This document shows positions 21,367-38,489 of a DNA stretch of 64,000 bases, in pieces. The notes under the pieces were generated by a model. It made no database searches. It worked only from the letters and a program-made list of their open reading frames with translations, and was not told the DNA's origin. The DNA is from Halanaeroarchaeum sulfurireducens (GTDB lineage Archaea; Halobacteriota; Halobacteria; Halobacteriales; Halobacteriaceae). The position numbers and the translations under genes are program-made. Position 1 is the stretch's first letter. Each line of letters begins with the position of its first letter. The stretch covers positions 744,001 to 808,000 of the forward strand of contig NZ_CP008874.1 of assembly GCF_001011115.1 (NCBI RefSeq), given 5' to 3'.

Positions 21367-22920
21367 ATGTCACATCCCTCTTCGATGTTCGGCAAGGGCA
21401 AACTCAACGATAAGGTCGACGTCGATTCGCTTCTCGACGACATTGGCCTGGACGAGAACGAAATCGCGTGGCGCAAGGATTTCATCAACTTCGACGAGGG
21501 AGACGTCGAACGGCTCTCACGGTACCAGGGGCTCTTCGAAGAGCACGGCGAGGATGTCGCCGACCTGTTCTACGAGAACCTCACGCAATACGAGGAGACC
21601 AGGGAGGTCATCTCCCGATCGCCGAAGGGCATCGAACAGTTGAAAAAGACCCAGGAGGCGTACCTCATGACCCTCGCCGATGGAGAGTACGGTTCCGATT
21701 ACTTCCGGAATCGGGCCCGTATCGGCAAACTTCACGACATTCTCGAAATGCCGATGAAGCAGTACATCGGCCAGTACGGCGTCTATTACGATCTGCTCGT
21801 CCCGCTGATTACCGAGCGCGTCCAGGAGAACGTCTCCGAGGCCCTGGCCGAGGCGGGTGAGGACGCTGCGAGCGGCGGCGTCACCATTGAGGAGGGGGAG
21901 ACGGGCGATGGCGACCGGTCAGCGGTCGAGCGTGCCGCCCACGAGGCCATCGAAGAGGGATTCGATGAATTTCACTCGATTTTGAAAATCATCAATCTCG
22001 ACATGCAGGTGGTCGCGGATACCTACATCCATTCGTACACCCAGGAGATCGAGGAGACACTCGACCAGCAACAACGGATCGCCTCGCAGCTCAAAGGCGC
22101 GGTGACCGAACTGTCGGCTGCATCGGAGAACGTCGCGGGGAGCGCATCTGAGATCAGCACCCTGGCCAACGAGCAGTACGAGAGCATGGACGAGGTGGCG
22201 AACGAGGTAGCGAACCTCTCGGCAACCGTCGAGGAAGTCGCCTCGTCGGCCACCGAGGTCGAACGGCAGAGCAACCAGACCCGCGATCTCGCCGAGGACG
22301 GGATGGAGGCTGCCGAGGAGGCGACCGCCGAAATGGGCGAACTCGACGGGGCACGCCAGATCATCGAGAATCGCGTCGACGACCTGGAATCGAAGGTCGA
22401 CGAGATCAACGACGTCATCGACGTCATCAACGACATCGCCGATCAGACCAACCTCCTCGCACTCAACGCCAATATCGAGGCAGCGCGTGCTGGCGAGTCC
22501 GGAAAGGGCTTTGCCGTGGTCGCGGACGAAATCAAATCGCTGGCCGAAGATACCCAGGACCACGCGGACGACATCGAGACGATGATCGCGGAAGTCCGCA
22601 ACGCGGCCGCAGAGACGATCGACACTCTGGGAGAGATCGAGGAGGGGATCCAGGAGGGCACCCGAGACGTCCGTGAGACGGAGGCGCTACTCGACGACAT
22701 CGTCGGAGAGGTCGACGAGACCGTCCACGGCGTCGCGCAGATCTCCGACGCGACGGACGAACAGGCGGCAAGCGCCGAGGAGATCGCCGCCATGGTCGAC
22801 GAAGCCCGCGATCAATCTCGCGAGGTGGCCGACGAGATCGAGGACGTGGCCGCGAGCACCGAGGAACAGGCGGCGAGCATCAGCGAAATAGAGGACTCGG
22901 CCGACCGACTCCAGGGATAG
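21367..22920 (+). CDS. hemAT: Globin-coupled aerotaxis transducer HemAT
   Basis: A 517-residue soluble chemotaxis transducer. Residues about 15-170 form a globin-coupled sensor domain; the proximal heme histidine is H123 in RIGKLHDILEMP, with the YIGQYGVYYDLL helix following, as in HemAT proteins. After a linker (about 215-245) comes a methyl-accepting signalling domain with the conserved hairpin tip DQTNLLALNANIEAARAGE (about 359-377) that binds CheA/CheW, flanked by Glu-rich methylation helices (VDEARDQSREVADEIE). No TM segments. In studied homologues heme-bound oxygen drives aerophobic or aerophilic behaviour. No che genes are in the window. It is divergent from the PAS kinase. Confidence 0.93.
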   Translation: MSHPSSMFGKGKLNDKVDVDSLLDDIGLDENEIAWRKDFINFDEGDVERLSRYQGLFEEHGEDVADLFYENLTQYEETREVISRSPKGIEQLKKTQEAYLMTLADGEYGSDYFRNRARIGKLHDILEMPMKQYIGQYGVYYDLLVPLITERVQENVSEALAEAGEDAASGGVTIEEGETGDGDRSAVERAAHEAIEEGFDEFHSILKIINLDMQVVADTYIHSYTQEIEETLDQQQRIASQLKGAVTELSAASENVAGSASEISTLANEQYESMDEVANEVANLSATVEEVASSATEVERQSNQTRDLAEDGMEAAEEATAEMGELDGARQIIENRVDDLESKVDEINDVIDVINDIADQTNLLALNANIEAARAGESGKGFAVVADEIKSLAEDTQDHADDIETMIAEVRNAAAETIDTLGEIEEGIQEGTRDVRETEALLDDIVGEVDETVHGVAQISDATDEQAASAEEIAAMVDEARDQSREVADEIEDVAASTEEQAASISEIEDSADRLQG

Positions 22921-24784: not shown

Positions 24785-25458
24785 CCGCTGCGTCCGTCTC
24801 CGAATCCGATATGGAGACGATGGCCACGTTCGTCTTCGACTATCTCGATGCGAGCATCGAGAACGAAGCGAACGGGGGCCGGATGCGCTGGTATCCGTGG
24901 CACTCCGCGGAGTATCGGTTCAACCACATCATGAACGTCGTGGAACTCGCAACCGAGATCGCCGAACGCGAGGGTGCGGATGTCGACGTCGTTACCGTGG
25001 CCGCGCTGTTCCACGACATCGCGAAACTCGAGGTTGAGCAGGACCGGCACGCGGAGGAAGGGGCCACCATCGCGCGAAAGTACCTGGAGACGCATGGCGA
25101 CTATCCCCCGTCGTTCGTCGACCGGGTCTGCGAGTCGATCGAACGGCATTCACACCAGGGGGACCTGACCGATCTGTCACCCGAGACGCGATGTCTCGTC
25201 GAGGCGGACATGCTCGACAAGATCGGTGCGAACGGTTCTACCCTGATGATCCTCCGGATGGGCTACGAGGCCCGGACCCACATGGACGCCGGCGAGATGG
25301 TCGAACGGGTGCTCGAACGTGGTCGGAACGCCCGAGACCGGATCGAGAGCGACACCGCCAAGAGCATCCTCCATCAGCGCCTCAAGCGCGTCAAATGGTT
25401 CCGCGAGTGGCTGGATGACGAGATCGCCGAGATGGACCTCACAGGGGACGAGGACTAG
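24769..25458 (+). CDS. HD-domain phosphohydrolase
   Basis: A 229-residue HD-superfamily metal-dependent phosphohydrolase. The metal ligands are visible as H in FNHIMNVVELA (about residue 48), the HD pair in ALFHDIAKLE (about 79-80), and later H (SIERHSHQGDL) and D (VEADMLDKIG). The GTG start is chosen because GGAGGTGA lies 4 bases before it; an upstream frame is basic and non-coding. Related proteins hydrolyse nucleotides or (p)ppGpp-like molecules, but the substrate here is unknown. Its stop overlaps that of the convergent LysE gene by 4 bases. Confidence 0.8.
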   Translation: MGVKVTAASVSESDMETMATFVFDYLDASIENEANGGRMRWYPWHSAEYRFNHIMNVVELATEIAEREGADVDVVTVAALFHDIAKLEVEQDRHAEEGATIARKYLETHGDYPPSFVDRVCESIERHSHQGDLTDLSPETRCLVEADMLDKIGANGSTLMILRMGYEARTHMDAGEMVERVLERGRNARDRIESDTAKSILHQRLKRVKWFREWLDDEIAEMDLTGDED

Positions 25459-26150: not shown

Positions 26151-27344
26151 TCAGATCCCTTTTTTCATGAGATGACTGCGAAGGACGTCCGACTGCCTGT
26201 TCCCGGTTGCGGTGTTCACGAGGACGACGGTATCGTTCTCGCCGAGAGTGCCCCGATTGGCGAGTTCCTGGGCGCCGCTCACGGCCGCGCCGGCGGACGG
26301 TGACATCTCCACCCCCACCGACTGGGCGACGTCGACGGCCGCTTCGAGGATCGCGTCGTCCACCGTGGAGACCGCACCGCCACCCGTCTCCCGGACGGCC
26401 TCGAGTGCCCACTGGCCCGCGTTCGGATCGGGAATCTCGATGCCGCCACAGATGGTGTCGGGTTGTTGCCACGGTTCCGGGGTGGGTCGGTCTTCCTCGA
26501 TCGCTCGAACGATCGGCGCACAGCCGTCGGCCTGTGCTGCGTACAGGGCTGGCACCTCGTCGATGAGGCCCATTTCGTGAAACTCCGTCGCCCCTTTGTA
26601 CGAGCCGACGAGTTCGGTCCCGTCTCCGGTCGGGACGACGATGGCGTCCGGTACCGTCCAGTCGAGTTGCTCGACGATCTCGTAGAACAACGTTTTCTCC
26701 CCCTCGTGACGGTAGGGGGTCTGGAAGGGTTGGACGGGGTACCAATCGGCTGCGTTCGTGAGATCGTCCTCGAAATCGCCAACGGCGTCGTCGATCCGGC
26801 CCTCGACGACGGTCATCTCTCCACCGTGGACGGTTACCATCGCCTTGTTCGTGTAGCCGGTCCGCGAGGGGACGTACACCTGTGAGGGGAGTCCGGCGGC
26901 CCCAGCGTACGCGCTCGTCGACTGCCCCCCGTTCCCGGTCGACGCGAGCGCGAGGGTCTCCGCGTCGTGGCCCAGCGCTGCGGTCGCCGTCACTGAGAGG
27001 CCCCGGTCCGCTACGGTGCCCGTCGGATTCCCTCCCTCGTCTTTGATCAGTACCCTTCCGACGCCCACCGTCTCGGCAAGCTGCGGAGCCTCCACGAGCT
27101 GGGTCGCACCTTCACCGATCGAGACAGCGCTTTCCCTCGGAAACGGAAGCAGCTCCTCGTAGCGCCACATCGAATCCATGCGGCGGTCGGTGAACGTTTC
27201 CCGATCGAGATCCAGTTCGCTCTCGTCGTACGTCGGATCGAGTTTTCCTCCACACTCGGGACACCGATGGGTGCCGGCGTCCACGTCGACCGTCGCCTCG
27301 CAGTCCCGGCAGGTAAGTCCGACGAACGCTCTGGTCGTGTCCAT
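26151..27344 (-). CDS. Threonine-synthase-like fold II protein lacking the PLP lysine
   Basis: A 397-residue protein with the full fold of threonine synthase: an N-terminal zinc ribbon (CRDC and CPEC, about residues 12-31), the phosphate loop STGNGGQS, and the C-terminal SPSAGAAVSG and TATG segments. At the site where the Schiff-base lysine should be (NPTGSFKDRG) this protein reads NPTGTVADRG, with Ala at 112 (codon GCG at 27009-27011). It therefore probably cannot form the usual internal aldimine. The ATG at 27344 gives the zinc ribbon at the N-terminus as in archaeal homologues; the longer frame is not supported. It could be a non-catalytic or regulatory paralogue. Confidence 0.8.
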   Translation of the reverse strand: MDTTRAFVGLTCRDCEATVDVDAGTHRCPECGGKLDPTYDESELDLDRETFTDRRMDSMWRYEELLPFPRESAVSIGEGATQLVEAPQLAETVGVGRVLIKDEGGNPTGTVADRGLSVTATAALGHDAETLALASTGNGGQSTSAYAGAAGLPSQVYVPSRTGYTNKAMVTVHGGEMTVVEGRIDDAVGDFEDDLTNAADWYPVQPFQTPYRHEGEKTLFYEIVEQLDWTVPDAIVVPTGDGTELVGSYKGATEFHEMGLIDEVPALYAAQADGCAPIVRAIEEDRPTPEPWQQPDTICGGIEIPDPNAGQWALEAVRETGGGAVSTVDDAILEAAVDVAQSVGVEMSPSAGAAVSGAQELANRGTLGENDTVVLVNTATGNRQSDVLRSHLMKKGI

Positions 27345-27450: not shown

Positions 27451-28791
27451 ATGACTCGACGAACCCTCATCATGGGCGCGGCCGGCCGCGATTTTCACGA
27501 CTTCGTCTCGACGTTTCGGGGGAACGACGAGCGCGAGGTCGTCGCGTTCACCCAGAGTTTCGCCCAGAACATCGGCGAACTCGACGAGATTCCCGAGCGG
27601 ACCTTCCCGGCCTCGATCGCCGGCGAGGGGTACCCCGACGGCATCCCCATTCTCCCCGAATCCGAACTCGAATCCATCGTCGAGGATCGCGACGTCGACG
27701 AGGTCGTCCTCTCGTACTCCGATCTCGCACACGAGTACGTCATGCACCAGGCGTCGCGGGCACTCTCCGCGGGTGCTGATTTCCGTCTCATCGGGACGGA
27801 GATGATGCTCGAAAGCGACACCCCGGTCGTCGCCGTCGACGCCGTCCGCACCGGCTGTGGGAAATCCCAGGCCTCCCGGAAACTGGCCGGCGCACTCGAC
27901 GACCGCGGCGTCGACGTGGTCGTGGTTCGTGAACCGATGCCGTATGGCGACCTCGAGGCACAGCGGGTTCAGCGCTTCGAGTCGGTCGACGATCTCGAGG
28001 CGGCCGGCGTCACCATCGAAGAGCGCGAGGAGTACGAACATCACATCGAGCGGGGCCACGTGGTCTACGCCGGCGTCGATTACGAGGCGATCCTGGACGA
28101 GGTCGAAGCGGAGGCCGAGGTCATCCTCTGGGACGGTGGGAACAACGAACTGCCGTTTTTCGAGCCAGACGTCCACTTCGTCCTGGCGGATCCTCACCGA
28201 CCGGGCCACGAACTGACCTATCATCCCGGCGAGACGAACCTCCGGATCGCGGATTACGTCGTGATCAACAAGGAGAACACGGCGGAGGAGGCGGACGTGC
28301 GAACCGTCGTCGAAAACGTCGGATCGGCGAACCCCGAGGCGGAGATCATCCACGCCGATTCCGTGGTATCGGTCGACGACCCGGGCGCAATCGAGGGAGC
28401 ACGCGTCCTCGCGGTCGAGGACGGTCCGACGCTCACTCACGGCGGAACGGCGACCGGCGCGGCGAGTATCGCCGCCGAACAGTATGGCGCGGATTGGGTC
28501 GTCGATCCGCGGAAAGGGGCGGTCGGGTCGATAGCGGACCTCTACGACGAGTATCCGCACCTCGGGAAGGTGATTCCCGCGATGGGGTACAGCGACGAAC
28601 AGGTCGCCGAACTCGAGCGATCCATCAACAACGTCGACTGTGACGTCGTGCTGGCCGGGACGCCGATCGACCTGTCACAGATCGTCGACGTCGAGAAGCC
28701 GGTCGTTCGCGTCCGATACGACATCGAGGAGCGCGGAGAACCGACCTTCGAGGACGTCCTCGACGAGCACGCCGACGTGCTCGGTCTCTAG
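27451..28791 (+). CDS. Cyclic 2,3-diphosphoglycerate synthetase-like NTPase
   Basis: A 446-residue protein resembling cyclic 2,3-DPG synthetase and related GTPases. The N-terminal 125 residues form a Rossmann-like domain (MGAAGRDFHDF...). A P-loop follows, TGCGKSQ with Lys 138, then a Walker B-like VILWDGGNN and INKENTAEE (an NKxx-like guanine-type motif). The C-terminal GYSDEQ and DVVLAGTPIDL segments are family typical. True cPGS makes cDPG in methanogens; haloarchaea are not known for it, so the activity is likely different. It is convergent with ornithine carbamoyltransferase and carbamate kinase, hinting at a role around carbamoyl phosphate. ATG at 27451 follows a T-rich TATA region at 27412-27419. 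Confidence 0.75.
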   Translation: MTRRTLIMGAAGRDFHDFVSTFRGNDEREVVAFTQSFAQNIGELDEIPERTFPASIAGEGYPDGIPILPESELESIVEDRDVDEVVLSYSDLAHEYVMHQASRALSAGADFRLIGTEMMLESDTPVVAVDAVRTGCGKSQASRKLAGALDDRGVDVVVVREPMPYGDLEAQRVQRFESVDDLEAAGVTIEEREEYEHHIERGHVVYAGVDYEAILDEVEAEAEVILWDGGNNELPFFEPDVHFVLADPHRPGHELTYHPGETNLRIADYVVINKENTAEEADVRTVVENVGSANPEAEIIHADSVVSVDDPGAIEGARVLAVEDGPTLTHGGTATGAASIAAEQYGADWVVDPRKGAVGSIADLYDEYPHLGKVIPAMGYSDEQVAELERSINNVDCDVVLAGTPIDLSQIVDVEKPVVRVRYDIEERGEPTFEDVLDEHADVLGL

Positions 28792-28838
28792 TCGATCGGC
28801 AATCGGTGATCGGTCTCTAGTCGGCAAGCAATCGGTGA
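28781..28838. repeat. 29-bp tandem duplication at a convergent gene junction
   Basis: Two contiguous 29-base copies (28781-28809 and 28810-28838) share TCGGTCTCTAGTCG and end AATCGGTGA. Copy 1 supplies the TAG of the NTPase gene and copy 2, read on the other strand, supplies the stop of the carbamoyltransferase gene. Confidence 0.7.
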
Positions 28839-29695
28839 AGGACCGCTTTCTGGACGTGTTGGCGATTCTCCGCCTGGTCGTACACGATGGAGTTCGGGCC
28901 ATCCATTACGGCAGCGTCGACCTCTTCGCCCCGGTGTGCGGGCAGACAGTGCATGAATTTCGCGTCGTCGGAATGGTCCATCAGCTCGGGTGTCACCTGG
29001 TATCCCTCGAAGGCGTCCGTTTTCTCCTCGGATTGGCCCATGCTCACGAAGACGTCCGTATAGACCGCTTTCGCCCCTGACACCGCCTCGACCGGGTCGT
29101 TCGTGACCGTCACGTCGGCGTCGGCGACTCGGTCCTGGATGATGGCATCGGGTTCGTACCCCGATGGCGTGGCGATTCGACAGGGAATGTCCATCGTCGC
29201 ACAGAGTTGCATGAGCGATTGGGCGACGTTGTTCCCGTCACCGACGAAGGCCAGCGGCCCGTCGTCGATGCCGTGCTCTCGCAGAGTGTACACGTCCGAG
29301 AGCGCCTGGCAGGGGTGGAGGAGGTCCGTGAGTCCGTTGATTACCGGCACGTCCGCGTACTCGGCCAACTCGACCATCGTTTCGTGGTCGAACAGCCGGG
29401 CCATGATGGCGTCCGTGTATCGCGAGAGCACTTTCGCCGTGTCCTTCAGTGACTCCCCACGGGACATCTGTGATTGATCTTCGGGAAAATAGATGGCGTG
29501 ACCGCCGAGCTGGGTCATTCCCGCCTCGAACGACACGCGCGTTCGTGTCGACGGTTTGGCGAAAAACATCAACAGCGTCTCGTTCGAGAGCGAATCGTGG
29601 TAGGCCTCCGGCGACGCCTTTATGTCGTCGGTCAGTTCGTAGACGTCGCGTATCTCCGCTGCCGTGAGGTCGTCGATGTCGATTACGTCGTGCAT
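28817..29695 (-). CDS. argF: Ornithine carbamoyltransferase
   Basis: A 292-residue transcarbamylase that joins carbamoyl phosphate and ornithine to citrulline, or runs in reverse in arginine fermentation (ArcB). Motifs: carbamoyl-phosphate loop PSTRTR near residue 48, HPCQ near 126, and the ornithine-binding HCLPAHR near 256. The ATG at 29695 starts one base before (in transcription order, after) the carbamate kinase stop, so the two are cotranscribed with arcC first. No arginine deiminase is present here, so anabolic versus catabolic use is not settled by the sequence. Confidence 0.93.
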   Translation of the reverse strand: MHDVIDIDDLTAAEIRDVYELTDDIKASPEAYHDSLSNETLLMFFAKPSTRTRVSFEAGMTQLGGHAIYFPEDQSQMSRGESLKDTAKVLSRYTDAIMARLFDHETMVELAEYADVPVINGLTDLLHPCQALSDVYTLREHGIDDGPLAFVGDGNNVAQSLMQLCATMDIPCRIATPSGYEPDAIIQDRVADADVTVTNDPVEAVSGAKAVYTDVFVSMGQSEEKTDAFEGYQVTPELMDHSDDAKFMHCLPAHRGEEVDAAVMDGPNSIVYDQAENRQHVQKAVLHRLLAD

Positions 29696-29696
29696 G

Positions 29697-30611
29697 TTAT
29701 GGTAGTACCTGCGTGCCGGCGTCACCGGCGAGTGCGTCGTCCATCACGTCGGTGGACGTTATTATGGCCCGTTCCCCCTGGGACTCCACGAAGTCGATCG
29801 CGGCCTCGACCTTCGGTTTCATGCTTCCCTCGGCGAACTCCCCGTCTGCGAGCAGTTCGCGTAACTCCGTCACCGACGCCTCCTCGATGGGTGCCTGATC
29901 TGCGGATCCGAAATCCGTGTAGGCGGCGTCGACGTCGGTCAATAACAACAGCATCGTCGCGTCGATTTCGTCCGCGACGAGCGCACTTGCCCGATCCTTG
30001 TCGATGACTGCCTCGACACCGCGGAGCTGTCCACGCTCACGGACGACCGGGATTCCGCCGCCGCCCGCGCAGATGACCGTCTTGCCGTCCGCGACGAGCG
30101 TCTCGATCCGGTCGGCCTCGACGACTTCGATTGGATCGGGCGAGGGGACGACTCGCCGGTATGTCGTTGTGCCATCGGGTCGAGTCACCTGTTTCGTCTG
30201 GAACGGCTTGGAGCGTCCCTCAGATTCGGAGTAGTGGGGACCGACCGGTTTCGTCGGGTGTTCGAAGGCCTCGTCGTGTGCGTCGACGCGTACTTGTGTG
30301 ATGACCGTGGTGACCGACTCCTCGAGGACGTTTCCCAATTCCTGCTGGAGGATGTACCCGAGTTGTGCCTGCGTCTCGGCGACCAGGACGTCCAGGGGAA
30401 ATCGCGGGCCCGCGTCCGACTGTTCCTGTTGGAGCATCAGGTTGCCGACCTGTGGGCCGTTACCGTGGGTCAACACGAAGTCGTGTCCGGCCTCGTCGAG
30501 GCGGGCGAGGTTCTCGACGGCCGCCCTGACCCGACGGCGTTGTCCCGCCATCGTCTCGTCGTCCATCGGGAGGAGGGTGTTTCCGCCCAGAGCGACGATG
30601 ATTCGACCCAT
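29697..30611 (-). CDS. arcC: Carbamate kinase
   Basis: A 304-residue amino acid kinase family protein that interconverts carbamate plus ATP and carbamoyl phosphate plus ADP. It starts MGRIIVALGGNTLL, the ATP-loop signature, followed by LTHGNGPQVGNL near residue 48, CAGGGGIPVV near 199 and VIDKDRASALVA near 216. The ATG at 30611 gives the standard length; the longer frame upstream is not coding. First gene of the arcC-argF pair, which fits arginine fermentation or carbamoyl-phosphate supply. Confidence 0.94.
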   Translation of the reverse strand: MGRIIVALGGNTLLPMDDETMAGQRRRVRAAVENLARLDEAGHDFVLTHGNGPQVGNLMLQQEQSDAGPRFPLDVLVAETQAQLGYILQQELGNVLEESVTTVITQVRVDAHDEAFEHPTKPVGPHYSESEGRSKPFQTKQVTRPDGTTTYRRVVPSPDPIEVVEADRIETLVADGKTVICAGGGGIPVVRERGQLRGVEAVIDKDRASALVADEIDATMLLLLTDVDAAYTDFGSADQAPIEEASVTELRELLADGEFAEGSMKPKVEAAIDFVESQGERAIITSTDVMDDALAGDAGTQVLP

Positions 30612-30702
30612 TGAACCTGACCGTTGGCGGGCGTGGGTAAAAGTCGTTGCGACGAGGGGTCGTTGCCATAGATTTATACTTTCCATTGCCCATCGAACGA
30701 TC

Positions 30703-31497
30703 ATGGAAGGAAATCGCGGGGTCCTGAACCGGCGGGCGTACCTGAAGACGGTGGGGGCGAGTGGAGCCATCGCGCTCACGGCCCAGGCCGGCTGTCTGGG
30801 GGGCGATGGCGATGCGGCGACGCTCACGGCTGCCACTGCGCCTGGGTTCCCTCCGTTCGAGCTGAAAGAGGGTGGTGAACTGGTCGGCTTCGATATTGAC
30901 CTCCTGGAGGCGGTCATCGAGGAGACCGACTACACGCTCGGGTCGTGGGAGGAGTTCGAATTCGATTCGCTGATCCCTGCCCTGAAAAACGAGAACGTCG
31001 ACGTCGTCGCCGCAGCGATGACCATCAACGACGAGCGCGATCAGACCATCGACTTCTCCGATCCCTACTACTCGGCCGACCAGTCGATACTGGTGGCCGA
31101 GGACGCCGAGTTCGAGCCAGCAACGCTCGACGACCTGGCCGATCGCCCGGTCGGCGCCCAGTCGGGGACGACCGGCGAAGACGTCGTCGAGGATCAGCTC
31201 ATCGCGAACGAGATCATCTCCGAGGGGCAGTACAACAGCTACGGAAATTACGTCCTCGCCGTCGAGGACCTCCTCGGCGGCAACATCGACGCCGTCGTTC
31301 TCGACACGCCGGTCGCCCAGACGTTCGCATCGAATCGACCGGTCACGGTCGCCTTCGTGTACGAGACCGGCGAGAACTACGGCTTCGGCATTCGCGAAGG
31401 GGCCACCGAACTGCAAACCGGGCTCAACGAGGGGCTCCAGGCGGTCCGCGACGATGGCACCTACGAGGACATCACCGCAAAGTGGTTCACGGAATAA
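30703..31497 (+). CDS. Polar amino acid ABC transporter substrate-binding lipoprotein
   Basis: A 264-residue family 3 extracellular solute-binding protein. A Tat-type signal (NRRAYLKTVG) is followed by a hydrophobic stretch and lipobox AGC, then a Gly/Asp linker, so it is a lipid-anchored external receptor. The core has PPFELKEGGELVGFDIDLL near residue 50 and DFSDPYYSADQSILV near 118, hallmarks of the glutamine/histidine/arginine receptor family. A TATA box TTTATACT (30673-30680) precedes the ATG by about 25 bases. First gene of a four-gene transporter operon. Confidence 0.9.
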   Translation: MEGNRGVLNRRAYLKTVGASGAIALTAQAGCLGGDGDAATLTAATAPGFPPFELKEGGELVGFDIDLLEAVIEETDYTLGSWEEFEFDSLIPALKNENVDVVAAAMTINDERDQTIDFSDPYYSADQSILVAEDAEFEPATLDDLADRPVGAQSGTTGEDVVEDQLIANEIISEGQYNSYGNYVLAVEDLLGGNIDAVVLDTPVAQTFASNRPVTVAFVYETGENYGFGIREGATELQTGLNEGLQAVRDDGTYEDITAKWFTE

Positions 31498-31509
31498 GGC
31501 TCGACGGCA

Positions 31510-32202
31510 ATGAATGGGCTTTTCGGCGTTCTCGCGCAGGCACAGATTGGTGACTGGGGATTCGTTCTCCAGAACTGGGACTATCTCGCCGGCGGCCTCT
31601 GGCTGACGGTTCAGTTGACCCTCCTCAGCATCGTGCTGGGGTTCGTCGTGGGCTTCCCCGCCGGCGCCGTCGAGGTGTACGGCAACAAATACGCTGCGAC
31701 CCCGGTCAAGGTCGCCGGCACGGTGCTGCGAGGAACGCCGCTACTCGTTATTTTGATTTTCGCGTACTTCGTGGCCCCTATCGGGTCCGCGTTCCTGGCA
31801 GCCATTCTCGGACTCGGACTGCGGAGCGCCGCCTATCAGACGCAGATCTTTCGGGGTTCATTACAGAGCGTGGGCGAGGGACAGATGAACGCCGCACGGG
31901 CTATCGGTATGACGAAACTCGAAGCGATCTATCACGTCGTGGTCCCACAGGCGCTCAGACGGAGCGTTCCCTCGTTTCAAAACGAATTCACCATCGTTCT
32001 CAAGGACACGTCTCTGGCTTTCGCCATCGGGTTCGCCGAGCTATTGACGCGCAGCTACGACCTGTTCGTCCAGCGCACGACCGCCGTTCTGGAAGTGATC
32101 CTCTTCGTGAGCGCGATCTACTTCGTGCTCACCTTCACCACGAATCGGGCCCTCGACCGCCTCTCGGATCGGTACGAAATCCCATCCGGTGAATCCCAAT
32201 GA
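31510..32202 (+). CDS. Polar amino acid ABC transporter permease (first)
   Basis: A 230-residue His/Glu/Gln/Arg-type permease with about five TM segments. The N-terminal block LAGGLWLTVQLTLLSIVLG and the EAA-like loop GEGQMNAARAIGMTKLEAIYHVVVPQAL (about residues 120-148) are family typical. It begins 12 bases after the receptor gene and ends overlapping the ATPase start by 4 bases (ATGA). It forms a heterodimer with the second permease or a homodimer. Confidence 0.9.
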   Translation: MNGLFGVLAQAQIGDWGFVLQNWDYLAGGLWLTVQLTLLSIVLGFVVGFPAGAVEVYGNKYAATPVKVAGTVLRGTPLLVILIFAYFVAPIGSAFLAAILGLGLRSAAYQTQIFRGSLQSVGEGQMNAARAIGMTKLEAIYHVVVPQALRRSVPSFQNEFTIVLKDTSLAFAIGFAELLTRSYDLFVQRTTAVLEVILFVSAIYFVLTFTTNRALDRLSDRYEIPSGESQ

Positions 32203-32957
32203 CTGAACCACTCCTCCGGGTCGAAAACCTACAGAAGAGCTACGGTGACGAAACGGTTTTGACCGACGTTACCTTCGAAATGGACGAGCAGGACGCCAAC
32301 GTGATCATCGGTCCGAGCGGGTGCGGGAAGTCGACGCTGTTGCGGTGTATCAATCGGCTGACCGCAGTCGATGGCGGCGACATCTACCTCGACGGCGAAC
32401 GAACGACCGCCCCTGGGTACGATGTGAACGACCTCCGCCGAAACGTCGGGATGGTCTTTCAGGACATCAATCTGTTCGCGCATCTGACGGCCCTGGAGAA
32501 CGTGACGCTGGGACTCAAACGCGTTCTCGGCATGGACTCGAAGGCAGCTCAGGACAAGGCGATGGCCGAACTCGAACAGGTGGGACTGGGGGACAAAGCC
32601 GACTCCTATCCCGCAGAACTCTCCGGCGGCCAACAGCAGCGCGTCGGCATCGCGAGAGCCCTGGCGATGGACCCGAAGCTCATGCTCTTCGACGAACCGA
32701 CGAGCTCCCTCGATCCGGAACTGACCGGTGAGGTCGTCGAGGTGATGCAGCAACTCGCCGAGGAGGGGATGACGATGCTCGTGGTCACACACGAGATGGG
32801 GTTCGCCCGGTCGGCAGCGACGAACGTCATGTTTCTCGAAGGCGGGGGATTCGTCGAGGTCGGCCCCCCCGAACAGATATTCACAGACCCCGAGCAAGCC
32901 CGCACGGCAGAGTTCCTGGAACGCATCACGGAAGCCGAGTTGGAGGGGACACGGTAA
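32199..32957 (+). CDS. Polar amino acid ABC transporter ATPase
   Basis: A 252-residue GlnQ/HisP-type ATPase: Walker A GPSGCGKST near residue 39, Q-loop VFQDINLFAHLT, signature LSGGQQQRVGIARAL near 143, Walker B LMLFDEPTSSLDP near 164 and switch VVTHEMGFAR. It is coupled by overlap to the upstream permease and is followed 3 bases later by a second permease. The linker just before the Walker A (EQDANVIIGPSG) is slightly unusual but all catalytic residues are present. Confidence 0.94.
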   Translation: MTEPLLRVENLQKSYGDETVLTDVTFEMDEQDANVIIGPSGCGKSTLLRCINRLTAVDGGDIYLDGERTTAPGYDVNDLRRNVGMVFQDINLFAHLTALENVTLGLKRVLGMDSKAAQDKAMAELEQVGLGDKADSYPAELSGGQQQRVGIARALAMDPKLMLFDEPTSSLDPELTGEVVEVMQQLAEEGMTMLVVTHEMGFARSAATNVMFLEGGGFVEVGPPEQIFTDPEQARTAEFLERITEAELEGTR

Positions 32958-32960
32958 CCG

Positions 32961-33857
32961 ATGGTTTCATCGCGGGAGGCTCTCGACGCTGGCATCTCGG
33001 TCTCGACGGGGGGCTGGGCCTGGCGTGCGTTTTACCTGCTCTTCTGGGGGTGGCTTCTGGCCCGCTGGCTGAACGGGTGGTTTCTCTCGTCGATAACCGG
33101 CATTGCGCCGGGTCAGCCGTTCGTCGATCCTGCCCTGGTCGAACCGATATCCGATTCCCTCGCGTTCGCGCTCACGCACTTGCCCGCACTCGCCCATGGG
33201 GCGTGGGTGACGATCGTCCTGACGGCCGTCGCCATCGCGCTGGGATTCGTCATCGCCGTTCCGGTGAGTGTCGCCCGCGTGTACGGCGGCTACTCGAAAT
33301 GGCTCTCACTGGCATTTACCGAACTCATCCGGGGCACACCGCTTCTGGCTCAGCTGTTCGTTCTGTACTACGGTCTCGGCCTCTCCTCGTGGATCCGAGG
33401 ACTGCCACTGGTGGGCGTCGGACCGGTTCCCGGCCAGGCGTTCTGGGTCGCCATCGTCGGATTCACGATCAACAGCGCGGCCTATCAGGCCGAATACATC
33501 AGGTCGGCGCTCCTCTCAGTGGAATCCGGGCAGTTGACTGCCGCGCGAGGGATCGGATTGAGTCGATTCGAGGGGATCCGGTACGTCGTCTTGCCACAGG
33601 GGCTCCGGTACGCTATCCCCGCCTGGTCGAACGAGCTGATCTACCTGATAAAGTACTCCTCGCTGGCGGCGTTCATCACCGTCCCGGAACTCTTCAAGGT
33701 AGCCCAGCGGATCGCGTCGTCGAACTTCCGGTACACCGCCATCTTCTCGCTCGTGGCCGTCGTCTACCTGGGGATCATCATCTCCGCATCGAACGTGATG
33801 GACTTCGTCGACGAATCGGTGGCAATCCCCGGACTCGGCCAGAAGCGATCGCGGTGA
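32961..33857 (+). CDS. Polar amino acid ABC transporter permease (second)
   Basis: A 298-residue permease of the same family as the gene at 31510. It has an extra N-terminal hydrophobic segment (about residues 18-38) before the conserved LAHGAWVTIVLTAVAIALG, and the EAA-like loop SGQLTAARGIGLSRFEGIRYVVLPQGLRY at about 193-220. With two permeases, an ATPase and a receptor, the operon is complete. The substrate is a polar amino acid; the nearby arginine-related genes make a basic amino acid or citrulline possible, but this is inference. Confidence 0.88.
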   Translation: MVSSREALDAGISVSTGGWAWRAFYLLFWGWLLARWLNGWFLSSITGIAPGQPFVDPALVEPISDSLAFALTHLPALAHGAWVTIVLTAVAIALGFVIAVPVSVARVYGGYSKWLSLAFTELIRGTPLLAQLFVLYYGLGLSSWIRGLPLVGVGPVPGQAFWVAIVGFTINSAAYQAEYIRSALLSVESGQLTAARGIGLSRFEGIRYVVLPQGLRYAIPAWSNELIYLIKYSSLAAFITVPELFKVAQRIASSNFRYTAIFSLVAVVYLGIIISASNVMDFVDESVAIPGLGQKRSR

Positions 33858-33897: not shown

Positions 33898-35172
33898 ATG
33901 TCTTCGCCCACAGTCGCGATCGCAGGCGGGGGGCTCGCCGGACTGCGAACGGCCGAACGCCTCGCGTCGGCCGACGTCGACGTCCGCCTGTACGAGCGCG
34001 AACCCACGATCGGCGGCCGCGTCAAAACCGAACGGGAGGGGGCGTACCAGTTCGATCGGGGCTTTCAGGTACTCTTGACAGCGTATCCGGCGGTTAGGGA
34101 TGCTCTGGATTTGGACGCCCTCGACCTCCGTCGGTTCCCACCCGGTGCCACGGTCTGTCGGCCCAACCACCGGTCCACCATCGCCGACCCGATTCGCGCA
34201 CCTCGAAAACTGTTCGAAACGGCCTTCAGTCGAGACGTGACCGTCGGTGACAAATTCCGCATCGTCTCCTTGCGACGCGATCTCAGACGACGAACGGTCG
34301 GGGACATTTTCGGCGACGGTGACCGGACGATCCGCGAATATCTCCACGACCGCGGATTCTCGGATCGATTCGTGCGCCAGTTCGCGGCGCCGTTCTACGG
34401 CGGGATCACCCTGGACCGGTCGCTCTCCACGTCGAAACGGGTCTTCGAGTTCACGTTCAAGATGTTTGCCGAGGGTCACGCGGCCGTTCCGGCCGACGGT
34501 ATGGGCGCCGTCGCCGAGCAACTGGCCGGTGGGGCCCGGGACGCTGGCGCGACGCTCGAGACCGAAGCGACGGTCGAGCGAGTGGAGGCGACGGATGGGG
34601 GCGCGAACGTCGTCGTCGACGGAGACCGGATCGAGGCGGACGCGGTCGTGGTCGCGACCGACCCGCCGACGAGTGCACAACTGACGGACGTCGCGTCGAT
34701 CCCGACCAGCGGGAACGGGTGTGTCACCCAGTATTTCACCCTCTCCGAGGGACCGCCGCTCGAATCACAGCGATACATCATGTTGAACGCCTCGGGCGAG
34801 ATTCCCAATCAGATCGCGCCGATCGGCGTCGTGGCGCCCGAGTACGCGCCGGACGACGAGACGCTGTTGAGTGCAACGACCCTCGGCGATCCGTCGCTTT
34901 CCGAGGAGGAACTCGCCGACCGGACGCGGGAGACGCTCGCGAGCTGGTATCCCGAGGCGTCGGTCGAATCCATCTCTCTCGAGAAGACCATTCGCTGCTC
35001 ATTCGCGCAGTTTGACCAGCCACCCGGAATTCACGAATCGTTGCCGGCCGTCGACGACCCCGACGGGATGGTCTATCTCGCCGGTGATTACACCCGCTCA
35101 TCGTCGATCAATGGCGCCCTGGAGAGCGGGGCAACTGCCGCACGGGCCGTCCGCCGCGACCTACAACAGTGA
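33898..35172 (+). CDS. FAD-dependent amine oxidase/phytoene-desaturase-like oxidoreductase
   Basis: A 424-residue flavoprotein. It has an N-terminal dinucleotide loop GGGLAGLRTAERL (about 9-20) with ERE..IGGRVKTE (about 36-50), the amine oxidase/carotenoid desaturase signature, and a C-terminal FAD-binding AGDYTRSSSINGALESG (about 393-410). It is shorter than CrtI-type desaturases. Substrate unknown; it could be a protoporphyrinogen oxidase-like, amine oxidase or desaturase-like enzyme. A clear AAGGAGA lies about 8 bases before the ATG at 33898. Its last 12 bases overlap the end of the convergent phosphoesterase gene. Confidence 0.82.
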   Translation: MSSPTVAIAGGGLAGLRTAERLASADVDVRLYEREPTIGGRVKTEREGAYQFDRGFQVLLTAYPAVRDALDLDALDLRRFPPGATVCRPNHRSTIADPIRAPRKLFETAFSRDVTVGDKFRIVSLRRDLRRRTVGDIFGDGDRTIREYLHDRGFSDRFVRQFAAPFYGGITLDRSLSTSKRVFEFTFKMFAEGHAAVPADGMGAVAEQLAGGARDAGATLETEATVERVEATDGGANVVVDGDRIEADAVVVATDPPTSAQLTDVASIPTSGNGCVTQYFTLSEGPPLESQRYIMLNASGEIPNQIAPIGVVAPEYAPDDETLLSATTLGDPSLSEEELADRTRETLASWYPEASVESISLEKTIRCSFAQFDQPPGIHESLPAVDDPDGMVYLAGDYTRSSSINGALESGATAARAVRRDLQQ

Positions 35173-36749: not shown

Positions 36750-37505
36750 CTATCCGATATATCGAAGGTCGTCTTCGCCGCCGGGGCTCGGGCCGTCGTC
36801 CATCTCTTCGAGTCGACCGAGGACCTTTTCCATCTCTTCAGCCCGGTCGTCCAGTGCGTCGTACGCCACGTCGATATCGAGGAGATCCTCCAGCACCTCG
36901 AGGACCGCGCGAGCACTCATCGGATCCACGACGTAGCCGCTGGTCTCGCCCATGACACAGGCCGCGTCCAGCCCGCGCCGACCACCCATGCCAAGCAGGA
37001 GACCGCTCGTCCCCACGATGCCGCCTTCCGGTTCCTCTTCCCGAAACTCGACACCGACGTTTTCGAGGGCCGTCTTACGATCCTCGTTCGAAACCGCTCC
37101 GAGGACCGAGTAGTCCTCGATGAGTTCTCCCGTCGGAACCCCGCCGAGAGCGATCACCTCCTCAGCGCCAACGGACTCGGCGATGTCGAGAAATACGTCC
37201 GTGAGTCGGTAGTGGCCAGCGCCGTCACTCGCCTGGTGGTTCCCTGTCAAGACGAGCAGATCCCGTCCCTCGGTTTCGATGGCGTAGAATTTCGAGTGGG
37301 CCAGGGTCCCGGTGCCATTCTCGTCGATGACCACCTGTGGCGGGAAGTGTTCGGAGTAGACCTGCCTGACGAGCTGACTCTCCATCTCCTCGACGAGATG
37401 TTCGGCGACGAGTTTCCCCACGTGACCGACCCCCGGCAACCCCTCGATGAAGACGGGGTAGTCGAGTTCCACGGCCTCGACCTCCTCGACTTCGATTTCG
37501 TTCAT
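36750..37505 (-). CDS. PAC2-family proteasome assembly chaperone-like protein
   Basis: A 251-residue PAC2 (COG2047/PF09754) protein. Markers are FIEGLPGVGHVGKLVAEHL near residue 17, LVLTGNHQASDGAGHY near 87, a LGGVPTGEL segment near 123 and GTSGLLLGMGGRRGLDAACVMGETSGY near 165-190. Archaeal homologues are related to eukaryotic proteasome assembly chaperones. It lies 4 bases downstream of nop10 in the same-strand cluster eL44-eS27-aIF2-alpha-Nop10-PAC2, a conserved archaeal translation neighbourhood. The C-terminus is acidic and helical. Confidence 0.88.
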   Translation of the reverse strand: MNEIEVEEVEAVELDYPVFIEGLPGVGHVGKLVAEHLVEEMESQLVRQVYSEHFPPQVVIDENGTGTLAHSKFYAIETEGRDLLVLTGNHQASDGAGHYRLTDVFLDIAESVGAEEVIALGGVPTGELIEDYSVLGAVSNEDRKTALENVGVEFREEEPEGGIVGTSGLLLGMGGRRGLDAACVMGETSGYVVDPMSARAVLEVLEDLLDIDVAYDALDDRAEEMEKVLGRLEEMDDGPSPGGEDDLRYIG

Positions 37506-37509
37506 ACCG

Positions 37510-37692
37510 CTATTCGCGAACGCGCCGCTTAAGAGCGCGTCGGTACTCGCCGTAGGGGTCTGCGGGATCGAACGGTGCGGGAGCGCTGTTAGCTGTGGGG
37601 CCGCCACACTCGGGGCAGTGAGAAGAGAGCGTGTACACCGGGCGGTCGTGTTCGGTTTCCCACGACGCACACACCCGGATGTCGGCTTTCAT
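37510..37692 (-). CDS. nop10: H/ACA ribonucleoprotein Nop10
   Basis: A 60-residue Nop10, a component of the H/ACA RNP that guides pseudouridylation of rRNA. It shows the family signature [19 protein letters not shown] followed by DPYGEYRR. The N-terminal cysteines usual for a zinc ribbon in other archaea are reduced to one (RVCASW), so one zinc pair may be altered here. It overlaps the aIF2-alpha stop by 4 bases and precedes the PAC2 gene by 4. Confidence 0.92.
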
Positions 37693-38489
37693 TCCGTGTC
37701 CGTCTGACGATCGCGATGGAAGGTGCCGGTACCGCCCGCCTCGTCGATGGACGTGATGGCGCGGTCGGCGGCCGCCTCGAGTTCGTCCTCGGCGGTCTTG
37801 TAGTTCGGTGCCTGAACCCGAATGCGGTACTCCGGCGAACCGACGTAGGTGACGTCCAGATCGATCTCATCGGGAACCTCGCCGTCCCCTTCCGCGGCCT
37901 CGAGGGCGCCGCGCACGTCGTCGACGCCGCTCGGGTTGGGCGATTCGAGCTGTACGTACCCGGTCACCGTCACGTACGGAACGGAGACGTTCTCACGGGC
38001 GGTTTCGATGATGCGATCGCGCTCGTCGTCGGAGAGATCGACCGGTTCGAGTGCCTCCTTGCCGTGAATGGCGGCCTGCTCGAAACCGTCGTACAGGCTG
38101 CCAAATTCGGAAAGGAGCGCGTTTGCGACGCGGCCGAACGTCTCGTCGTCCATATCCTCGCCGAAGGCGAGCGAGAGCCATTTATCGGCCTTCTGTTCGT
38201 TCTTCCACTCCTGAATCTTGTCGGACCGCTGGTGGTCGTTGACGTCCTTGATCGAGAGATCGATCTGCTGGGAGGACTCGTCGACGTCGAGGACCTTCGC
38301 GACGACGGTCTGCCCCTCGCTTACGTGGTCGCGAACGTTCTTGATCCACCCCGAGGCGACTTCGCTGACGTGGGCCAGCCCGCGCTTGTCCTCGTACTCC
38401 TCGAGGTCGATGAAGACCCCGAAATCCTCGATCTCGTCGACCTTTCCGACGACCAACTCGCCCTGCTCGGGCCACCCCTCGTATTTCAT
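37689..38489 (-). CDS. eif2a: Translation initiation factor aIF2 alpha subunit
   Basis: A 266-residue alpha subunit of the archaeal ternary complex that brings Met-tRNAi to the ribosome. The N-terminal S1 domain has [22 protein letters not shown] and the typical [17 protein letters not shown] near residue 40; it is followed by a helical domain and a C-terminal alpha/beta domain. The regulatory Ser of eukaryotic eIF2-alpha is not obvious. It overlaps eS27 upstream and Nop10 downstream by 4 bases each. Confidence 0.95.

Follow-up and report, generated by a model that had tools for sequence, protein, structure and literature searches.

The window analysed here, a stretch of 64,000 nucleotides from the Halanaeroarchaeum sulfurireducens genome, encodes a protein (hereafter P0001) which resembles threonine synthase and carries an alanine at the position of the lysine that forms the Schiff base with PLP, and this raises the question of whether such a gene is still functional and in what capacity. 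An earlier reading made from the DNA letters only, the sequence-only reading, had noted the K to A replacement with clear GTA and GCG codons, and had claimed that the threonine synthase fold, the zinc ribbon and the phosphate loop are kept. The replacement was borne out, with residues 106-115 reading NPTGTVADRG, GTA at V111 and GCG at A112, and the protein of the one congener available (G346), 74% identical to P0001, likewise has alanine at 112. The fold was also found as claimed: the AlphaFold2 model, built with an alignment that took in 59 of the 80 named loci, had a mean pLDDT of 90.8, and its best structural matches were solved threonine synthases (Z 45.4 to 2c2b and 42.3 to 1v7c). All four cysteines of the zinc ribbon (C12, C15, C28 and C31) are present. 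The claim for the phosphate loop was wrong, since residues 240-244 read GDGTE in comparison to GGGVG in the lysine-bearing orthologues. The coordinates of the features are collected in Table 1.

Table 1. Features in the window (positions count from its first letter; residues are those of P0001; K+, lysine-bearing; non-K, lysine-less)
Feature	Position	Strand	Basis or remark
HD-domain protein	24811..25458	+	Pfam HD
LysE-type exporter, downstream of P0001	25455..26099	-	Pfam LysE 75.1 bits
Lysine-less threonine-synthase-like protein P0001, 397 aa	26151..27344	-	Open reading frame; Pfam PALP; NCBIfam NF006050
C-terminal tail DVLRSHLMKKG, residues 386-396	26157..26189	-	Specific to P0001's haloarchaeal family, by sequence comparison
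PDTICGGIEIPDP, residues 295-307	26424..26462	-	D296, G300, E303 invariant in non-K rows
Degenerated PLP phosphate loop GDGTE, residues 240-244	26613..26627	-	GGGVG in lysine-bearing relatives
PYRHEGEK, residues 210-217; R212 = R160 of Thermus threonine synthase	26694..26717	-	R212 in 81/81 non-K and 70/70 K+ rows
Second conserved set PSRxxYxNKAMxxVHGGxMxVVxGRxxDA, residues 159-187	26784..26870	-	R161 in 81/81, R183 in 80/81 non-K rows
Asparagine loop STGNGGQ, residues 135-141	26922..26942	-	Mostly SAGNAGQ in lysine-bearing relatives
Codon GCG, Ala112 at the PLP Schiff-base lysine position (NPTGTV-A-DRG)	27009..27011	-	Aligned with K61 of Thermus threonine synthase
Zinc ribbon C12-x2-C15 ... 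C28-x2-C31	27252..27311	-	Four cysteines; kept in most K+ and non-K relatives
Block between P0001 and flavoprotein: P-loop protein, ornithine carbamoyltransferase, carbamate kinase, amino-acid ABC transporter	27472..33857	.	Beside the gene in this genus only, among 77 loci
FAD-dependent amine-oxidase-family protein	33898..35172	+	Pfam Amino_oxidase 157.7 bits

A single PALP domain (Pfam 204.8 bits, cut-off 35) together with the fold places P0001 in the fold type II superfamily of PLP enzymes, and it is similar to threonine synthase ThrC (TIGR00260) in its fold (Z 38-45 to solved threonine synthases), to the archaeal threonine synthases in its zinc ribbon, and to the Thermus enzyme in R212. It differs from ThrC in lacking the PLP lysine of NPTGSFKDRG, the GNAGN and STGNTS loops, and the NS pair before the arginine, and in having an extra tail at the C-terminus; its TIGR00260 score is 151.3 bits, below the cut-off of 167.1, in comparison to 285.8 for the canonical enzyme of the same genome. 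It scores 328.2 bits with NF006050 (PRK08197, "threonine synthase"), above the cut-off of 303, so databases using this model will name it threonine synthase, a name implying a catalysis which, judged from the residues, would be impossible for P0001 by the usual route. The same equivalog model, which accepts the lysine-less P0001, rejects the canonical enzyme of its genome (270.7 bits, cut-off 303) and so is likely to be one source of wrong annotation in haloarchaea; metabolic models in which such genes are entered as threonine synthases deserve caution.

A second, intact threonine synthase does exist in the genome (2.21 Mb, 99.9% complete, six PALP genes). The protein search with P0001 returned one other relative, G000:C1:2058587-2059696, which is 37% identical, contains NPTGSFKDRG and carries the signatures of methanogen homologues STGNTS, LLNS-NP(Y/F)RLEGQKT and PVGNAGN; the genome also encodes homoserine dehydrogenase and homoserine kinase. 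The canonical threonine synthase was found at E<=1e-120 in all 59 haloarchaeal genomes searched, and as a control it was compared at 37 loci, every one of which has the lysine (29 newly added, 6 from the search of one genus, and L002 and L038). P0001 is therefore not the threonine synthase of the cell, and the possibility that it is the only one was rejected. An active-site motif search over the six PALP genes gave nothing useful beyond the canonical enzyme. The NS, GNAGN and STGNTS signatures are absent even from the lysine-bearing orthologues of P0001, so that the lysine-bearing form probably has a substrate other than that of threonine synthase. Another threonine-synthase-like gene in the congener (L040, G346:C1:333489-334565) contains an internal TGA and is perhaps a broken copy.

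To see how residue 112 varies, relatives were collected from the class, all 391 searched genomes of which match P0001 at E<=0.001 if remoter homologues, the canonical enzyme among them, are counted. The fetched loci were reduced to 250 distinct proteins, or 246 without the outgroup relatives L002, L038, L039 and L040. Residue 112 is lysine in 142 of these 246 family proteins and another residue in 104, a proportion which is not a class-wide frequency, since the 250 proteins were chosen by hand for spread from similarity-ranked P0001 matches. The 104 lysine-less proteins have T (32), A (26), L (18), V (12), R (7), G (2), Y (2), and N, E, F, H and I (1 each). In the closest relatives, 27 of the 80 named loci are without the lysine, among them those of Halobacterium salinarum DSM 3754 (arginine), Natrinema, Natronorubrum and Halospeciosus. 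Loci L368-L387 were added after the counting, and the further lysine-less members L378-L381, with arginine in another haloarchaeal family (G021) and valine in three genomes of P0001's own family (G007, G001 and G039), therefore stand outside the 246; L368 yielded a fragment of 8 residues and was left out.

The lysine-less genes are as constrained as the lysine-bearing ones, and purifying selection on them persists. The median dN/dS was 0.175 for 166 lysine-less pairs in comparison to 0.172 for 991 lysine-bearing pairs, the pairs in each set sharing sequences and hence not being independent, and for the P0001 gene against its congener the dN was 0.176 and the dS 0.957. The absence of the key catalytic residue could by itself come from a decaying pseudogene or a sequencing error, an explanation which we regard as practically ruled out by the intact frames in many genomes, the dN/dS of about 0.17, the same alanine in the congener, the large number of lysine-less proteins and the parallel losses in many genera. 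A catalytic residue that is gone while purifying selection continues is what characterises a pseudoenzyme, and both are seen in the P0001 family.

The number of losses was counted on two trees. The first held 154 of the 250 proteins (an 88% reduction) with the active-site columns masked, and the lysine/non-lysine label needs 10 changes on it by parsimony, 9 of them forced by the starred branches. A more careful tree of 50 hand-chosen rows also gave 10 changes, with at least 8 forced, and a single origin was found in 0 of 200 bootstrap trees; if the lysine is never regained (Dollo), the losses number 17, or 14 after weak branches are collapsed. P0001 and its congener formed one group in the 50-row tree with full support (100/100), and their loss was counted as a separate one because other members of P0001's own family in the trees (L054, L010 and L031) bear the lysine. 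A single ancient loss is ruled out by these changes, Dollo losses and bootstraps, and the PLP lysine was lost many times in parallel in this haloarchaeal family.

The rest of the cofactor site decays in step with the lysine. Across 395 columns, 81 lysine-less rows were compared with the 49 lysine-bearing rows in which the second residue set described below is also found, and the largest gains of variability in the lysine-less rows fell on positions 112 (1st), 241 (2nd), 244 (3rd) and 243 (10th), in a background where these rows are more diverse throughout (column means of 1.44 in comparison to 0.74 bits); positions 240 and 242 of the phosphate loop were little relaxed (134th and 376th). The full complement of loop glycines (240, 241, 242 and 244) is kept by 66 of 70 lysine-bearing rows in comparison to 2 of 81 lysine-less rows. 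In nine independent pairs the glycine loop was lost along with the lysine in five to six and the reverse was never seen, a borderline result by the sign test (p 0.03-0.06). The order of events varies, since some lysine-bearing proteins (L066, L069, L220, L227 and L229) have loops that are already changed; in L176 and L180 the lysine is gone and the loops are intact. PLP binding has thus presumably been lost in the lysine-less proteins, although some cofactor contacts may remain in P0001, where N138 and T378 are still present.

These two residues could also be taken to mean that P0001 is still a PLP enzyme, which holds PLP without the lysine or uses another lysine instead. Natural PLP proteins without the lysine are known in the ColD-type sugar dehydratases, an engineered PLP protein without it (beta-K87T TrpB, 2tys) is among the structural matches, and L176 and L180 have kept their loops; we nevertheless consider this explanation improbable, as the phosphate loop is degenerate in most lysine-less rows, with D241 and E244 in P0001, and a compensating lysine elsewhere was rejected. 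In the alignment of 81 lysine-less rows no column gained a lysine, and none of the only seven lysines of P0001 (34, 101, 167, 217, 250, 394 and 395) falls in such a column.

What the lysine-less proteins keep is a second set of conserved residues. In their rows 38 of the 395 columns are near-invariant, including R161, K167, H173, G174, R183, R212, Q271, P295, D296, G300, E303 and D329, and the C-terminal tail adds D386-x2-R389-S390-x-L392-M393-x2-G396; P0001 itself deviates from the set at 164 (Y) and 171 (T). When 23 of these residues were scored, all 104 lysine-less proteins reached at least 20, a high score which is partly by construction, as the residues were picked from the lysine-less rows. 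The 146 lysine-bearing proteins (142 of the family and the four outgroups) divided into 98 that score at least 20 and 48 that score lower, namely the four outgroups and 44 in separate lysine-bearing paralogue clades. The lysine-bearing orthologues and the paralogue clades belong to the same family as P0001, mostly with 50-64% identity to it, and differ from it in having the lysine and the GGGVG loop intact; the orthologues share its locus and its second residue set. Part of this set may simply mark the clade.

In the paralogue clades (L059, L143-L171, L186, L188, L192, L228 and others) the cofactor site is intact and R183 and E303 are mostly missing, these two being among the 9 of the 38 near-invariant columns that differ in over half of the 21 paralogue rows. 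The clades are possibly a purely catalytic branch of the family.

The DSSP assignment of the model places R161, R183 and R212 each just after a strand (154-159, 176-180 and 201-203, respectively), and in a parallel alpha/beta domain the loops that follow the strands share one side of the domain, where the active-site cleft is. The clustering of the three residues is deduced from secondary structure and the known fold topology. R212 corresponds to R160 of the Thermus threonine synthase, which we take to be a ligand of the substrate phosphate, and we infer from the model and these three positions that the anion-binding half of the cleft has been kept and the PLP half lost. In general, the analysis suggested that P0001 is a functional, PLP-free pseudoenzyme which keeps the anion-binding half of its cleft and is probably a ligand-binding or regulatory protein, a reading to which we give a probability of roughly 0.6. 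A pseudoenzyme was among the suggestions of the sequence-only reading, and it is well supported by the recurrent loss of the lysine, the decay of the phosphate loop, the absence of a compensating lysine column and the purifying selection.

A set of polar residues that all 81 lysine-less rows, or 80 of the 81, have in common is typical of an active site, and the retained cleft would also fit a PLP-independent enzyme in which it was re-used for a different reaction, with residues such as E303, D296, H173 or D186 as catalysts. We consider this unlikely, since the same residues occur in the lysine-bearing copies (the 98 proteins, most with an intact cofactor site) and so are not new to the lysine-less ones, and since the neighbouring genes point to no reaction.

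The neighbourhood was counted in 77 stretches where the gene was called, with the P0001 locus included and L059 and L266 dropped (22 lysine-bearing and 55 lysine-less), the neighbour genes coming from our own simple codon-usage gene caller and not a published one. An amine-oxidase-family flavoprotein gene, divergently oriented, was found at 50 loci (11 lysine-bearing, 39 lysine-less), the LysE-type exporter at 29 (7 and 22) and the HD protein at 21 (7 and 14), and since these neighbours are common to both kinds, the lysine-bearing and lysine-less copies are positional orthologues. None of the six paralogues with readable surroundings lies beside the flavoprotein gene; they are located away from the conserved locus. 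The eIF2-alpha and PAC2 genes border the region at many loci and are found here at 36750-38489. The flavoprotein gene adjoins the threonine-synthase-like gene in most relatives; here the two are 6.5 kb apart, separated by what appears to be an insertion, the block at 27472-33857, and the place of divergent neighbour is taken, in P0001's genome and in the congener, by a P-loop gene of 439 aa. The link to threonine or homoserine that the sequence-only reading saw in the downstream exporter was not supported: the exporter, though a recurrent neighbour, scored 34.5 bits, far below the cut-off of 183.95 for the homoserine/threonine exporter, and the family has no canonical signatures.

The recurrent flavoprotein neighbour could also argue for a structural or regulatory subunit that needs no active site of its own, forming a heteromer with a lysine-bearing paralogue, the canonical threonine synthase or the flavoprotein. 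The conserved, family-specific tail could serve as the interface, and plant threonine synthases are described as allosteric homodimers (PMC9081730). This explanation appears rather unlikely, somewhat more so than a re-used active site, because the genome has no lysine-bearing paralogue of this family, the two threonine-synthase-like hits being P0001 and the 37% identical enzyme, and because the conservation extends to the presumed cleft, beyond any possible interface.

For the pseudoenzyme we propose the following course. The ancestor would have been a haloarchaeal PLP-dependent enzyme of fold type II, related to threonine synthase and distinct from the threonine synthase of the cell, and it may already have had a second, PLP-independent role while it bore the lysine. 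With the Schiff-base lysine and the phosphate cup lost, the PLP chemistry would be gone; the catalytic half could be dropped repeatedly because the second role was already there and was kept. Topology places R161, R183 and R212 on the cleft side of one alpha/beta domain, where they, D296, E303 and the tail at the C-terminus would go on binding an anion that resembles a substrate. Most likely the protein would work as a regulator, a binding protein or a sensor of this ligand, and the genes that recur beside it, those of the amine-oxidase-family flavoprotein and the LysE-type exporter, suggest that the ligand is derived from an amino acid. In its full form, that of a once bifunctional PLP enzyme with a conserved cleft-based, PLP-independent role, whose catalytic half was dropped in some 8 to 17 independent events within the class and whose duplication in some families split a purely catalytic from a purely non-catalytic paralogue, the history is tentative, and we put it at slightly less than even odds.

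A comparable case is the bifunctional ThrC of Microcystis, in which the second role after duplication is threonine deamination, described as that of a PLP enzyme (PMC12172450). Both would be threonine-synthase relatives with a second role, which for the P0001 family is proposed; they differ in that the PLP chemistry appears to be lost in P0001. In Haloferax volcanii, a transposon mutant of thrC3 (HVO_2969) is reported to need Gly, Ser and Thr (PMC4300041), and this speaks neither for nor against the pseudoenzyme. We found no report of a lysine-less threonine synthase of haloarchaea in the open-licence literature searched, which is weak evidence of absence. Pseudoenzymes are a known kind, and the repeated loss of the PLP lysine in one positional orthologue seems to be new.

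The lysine is the defining residue of PLP enzymes, and in this family a single orthologous gene, at a single locus, has lost it many times; such repeated loss with the rest kept speaks for a second, hidden function in a gene to which a database model gives the name threonine synthase. The family lends itself to studying, in replicate, the sequence of steps by which a cofactor site is taken apart, and if the ancestor was indeed bifunctional, it would be a natural replicated experiment in the passage from enzyme to non-enzyme with several intermediate stages still living. As Halobacterium salinarum DSM 3754 has a lysine-to-arginine version, the question is open to testing in a laboratory organism.

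Some further observations concern the other genes of the window. The P-loop protein (27472-28791, plus strand) had no Pfam match, a sub-threshold score of 15.4 bits with the NCBIfam HypB model, and as its sole PDB hint a cyclic 2,3-diphosphoglycerate synthetase (E 0.31); it adjoins the ornithine carbamoyltransferase and carbamate kinase genes. These two are grouped with the amino-acid ABC transporter at 28817-33857, whose binding protein is closest to the lysine/arginine/ornithine type, under its cut-off, and the group possibly serves arginine or ornithine use. At 21385-22920 (plus strand) lies a chemotaxis-type transducer in which a protoglobin domain is fused to an MCP signalling domain, similar to the HemAT oxygen sensors.
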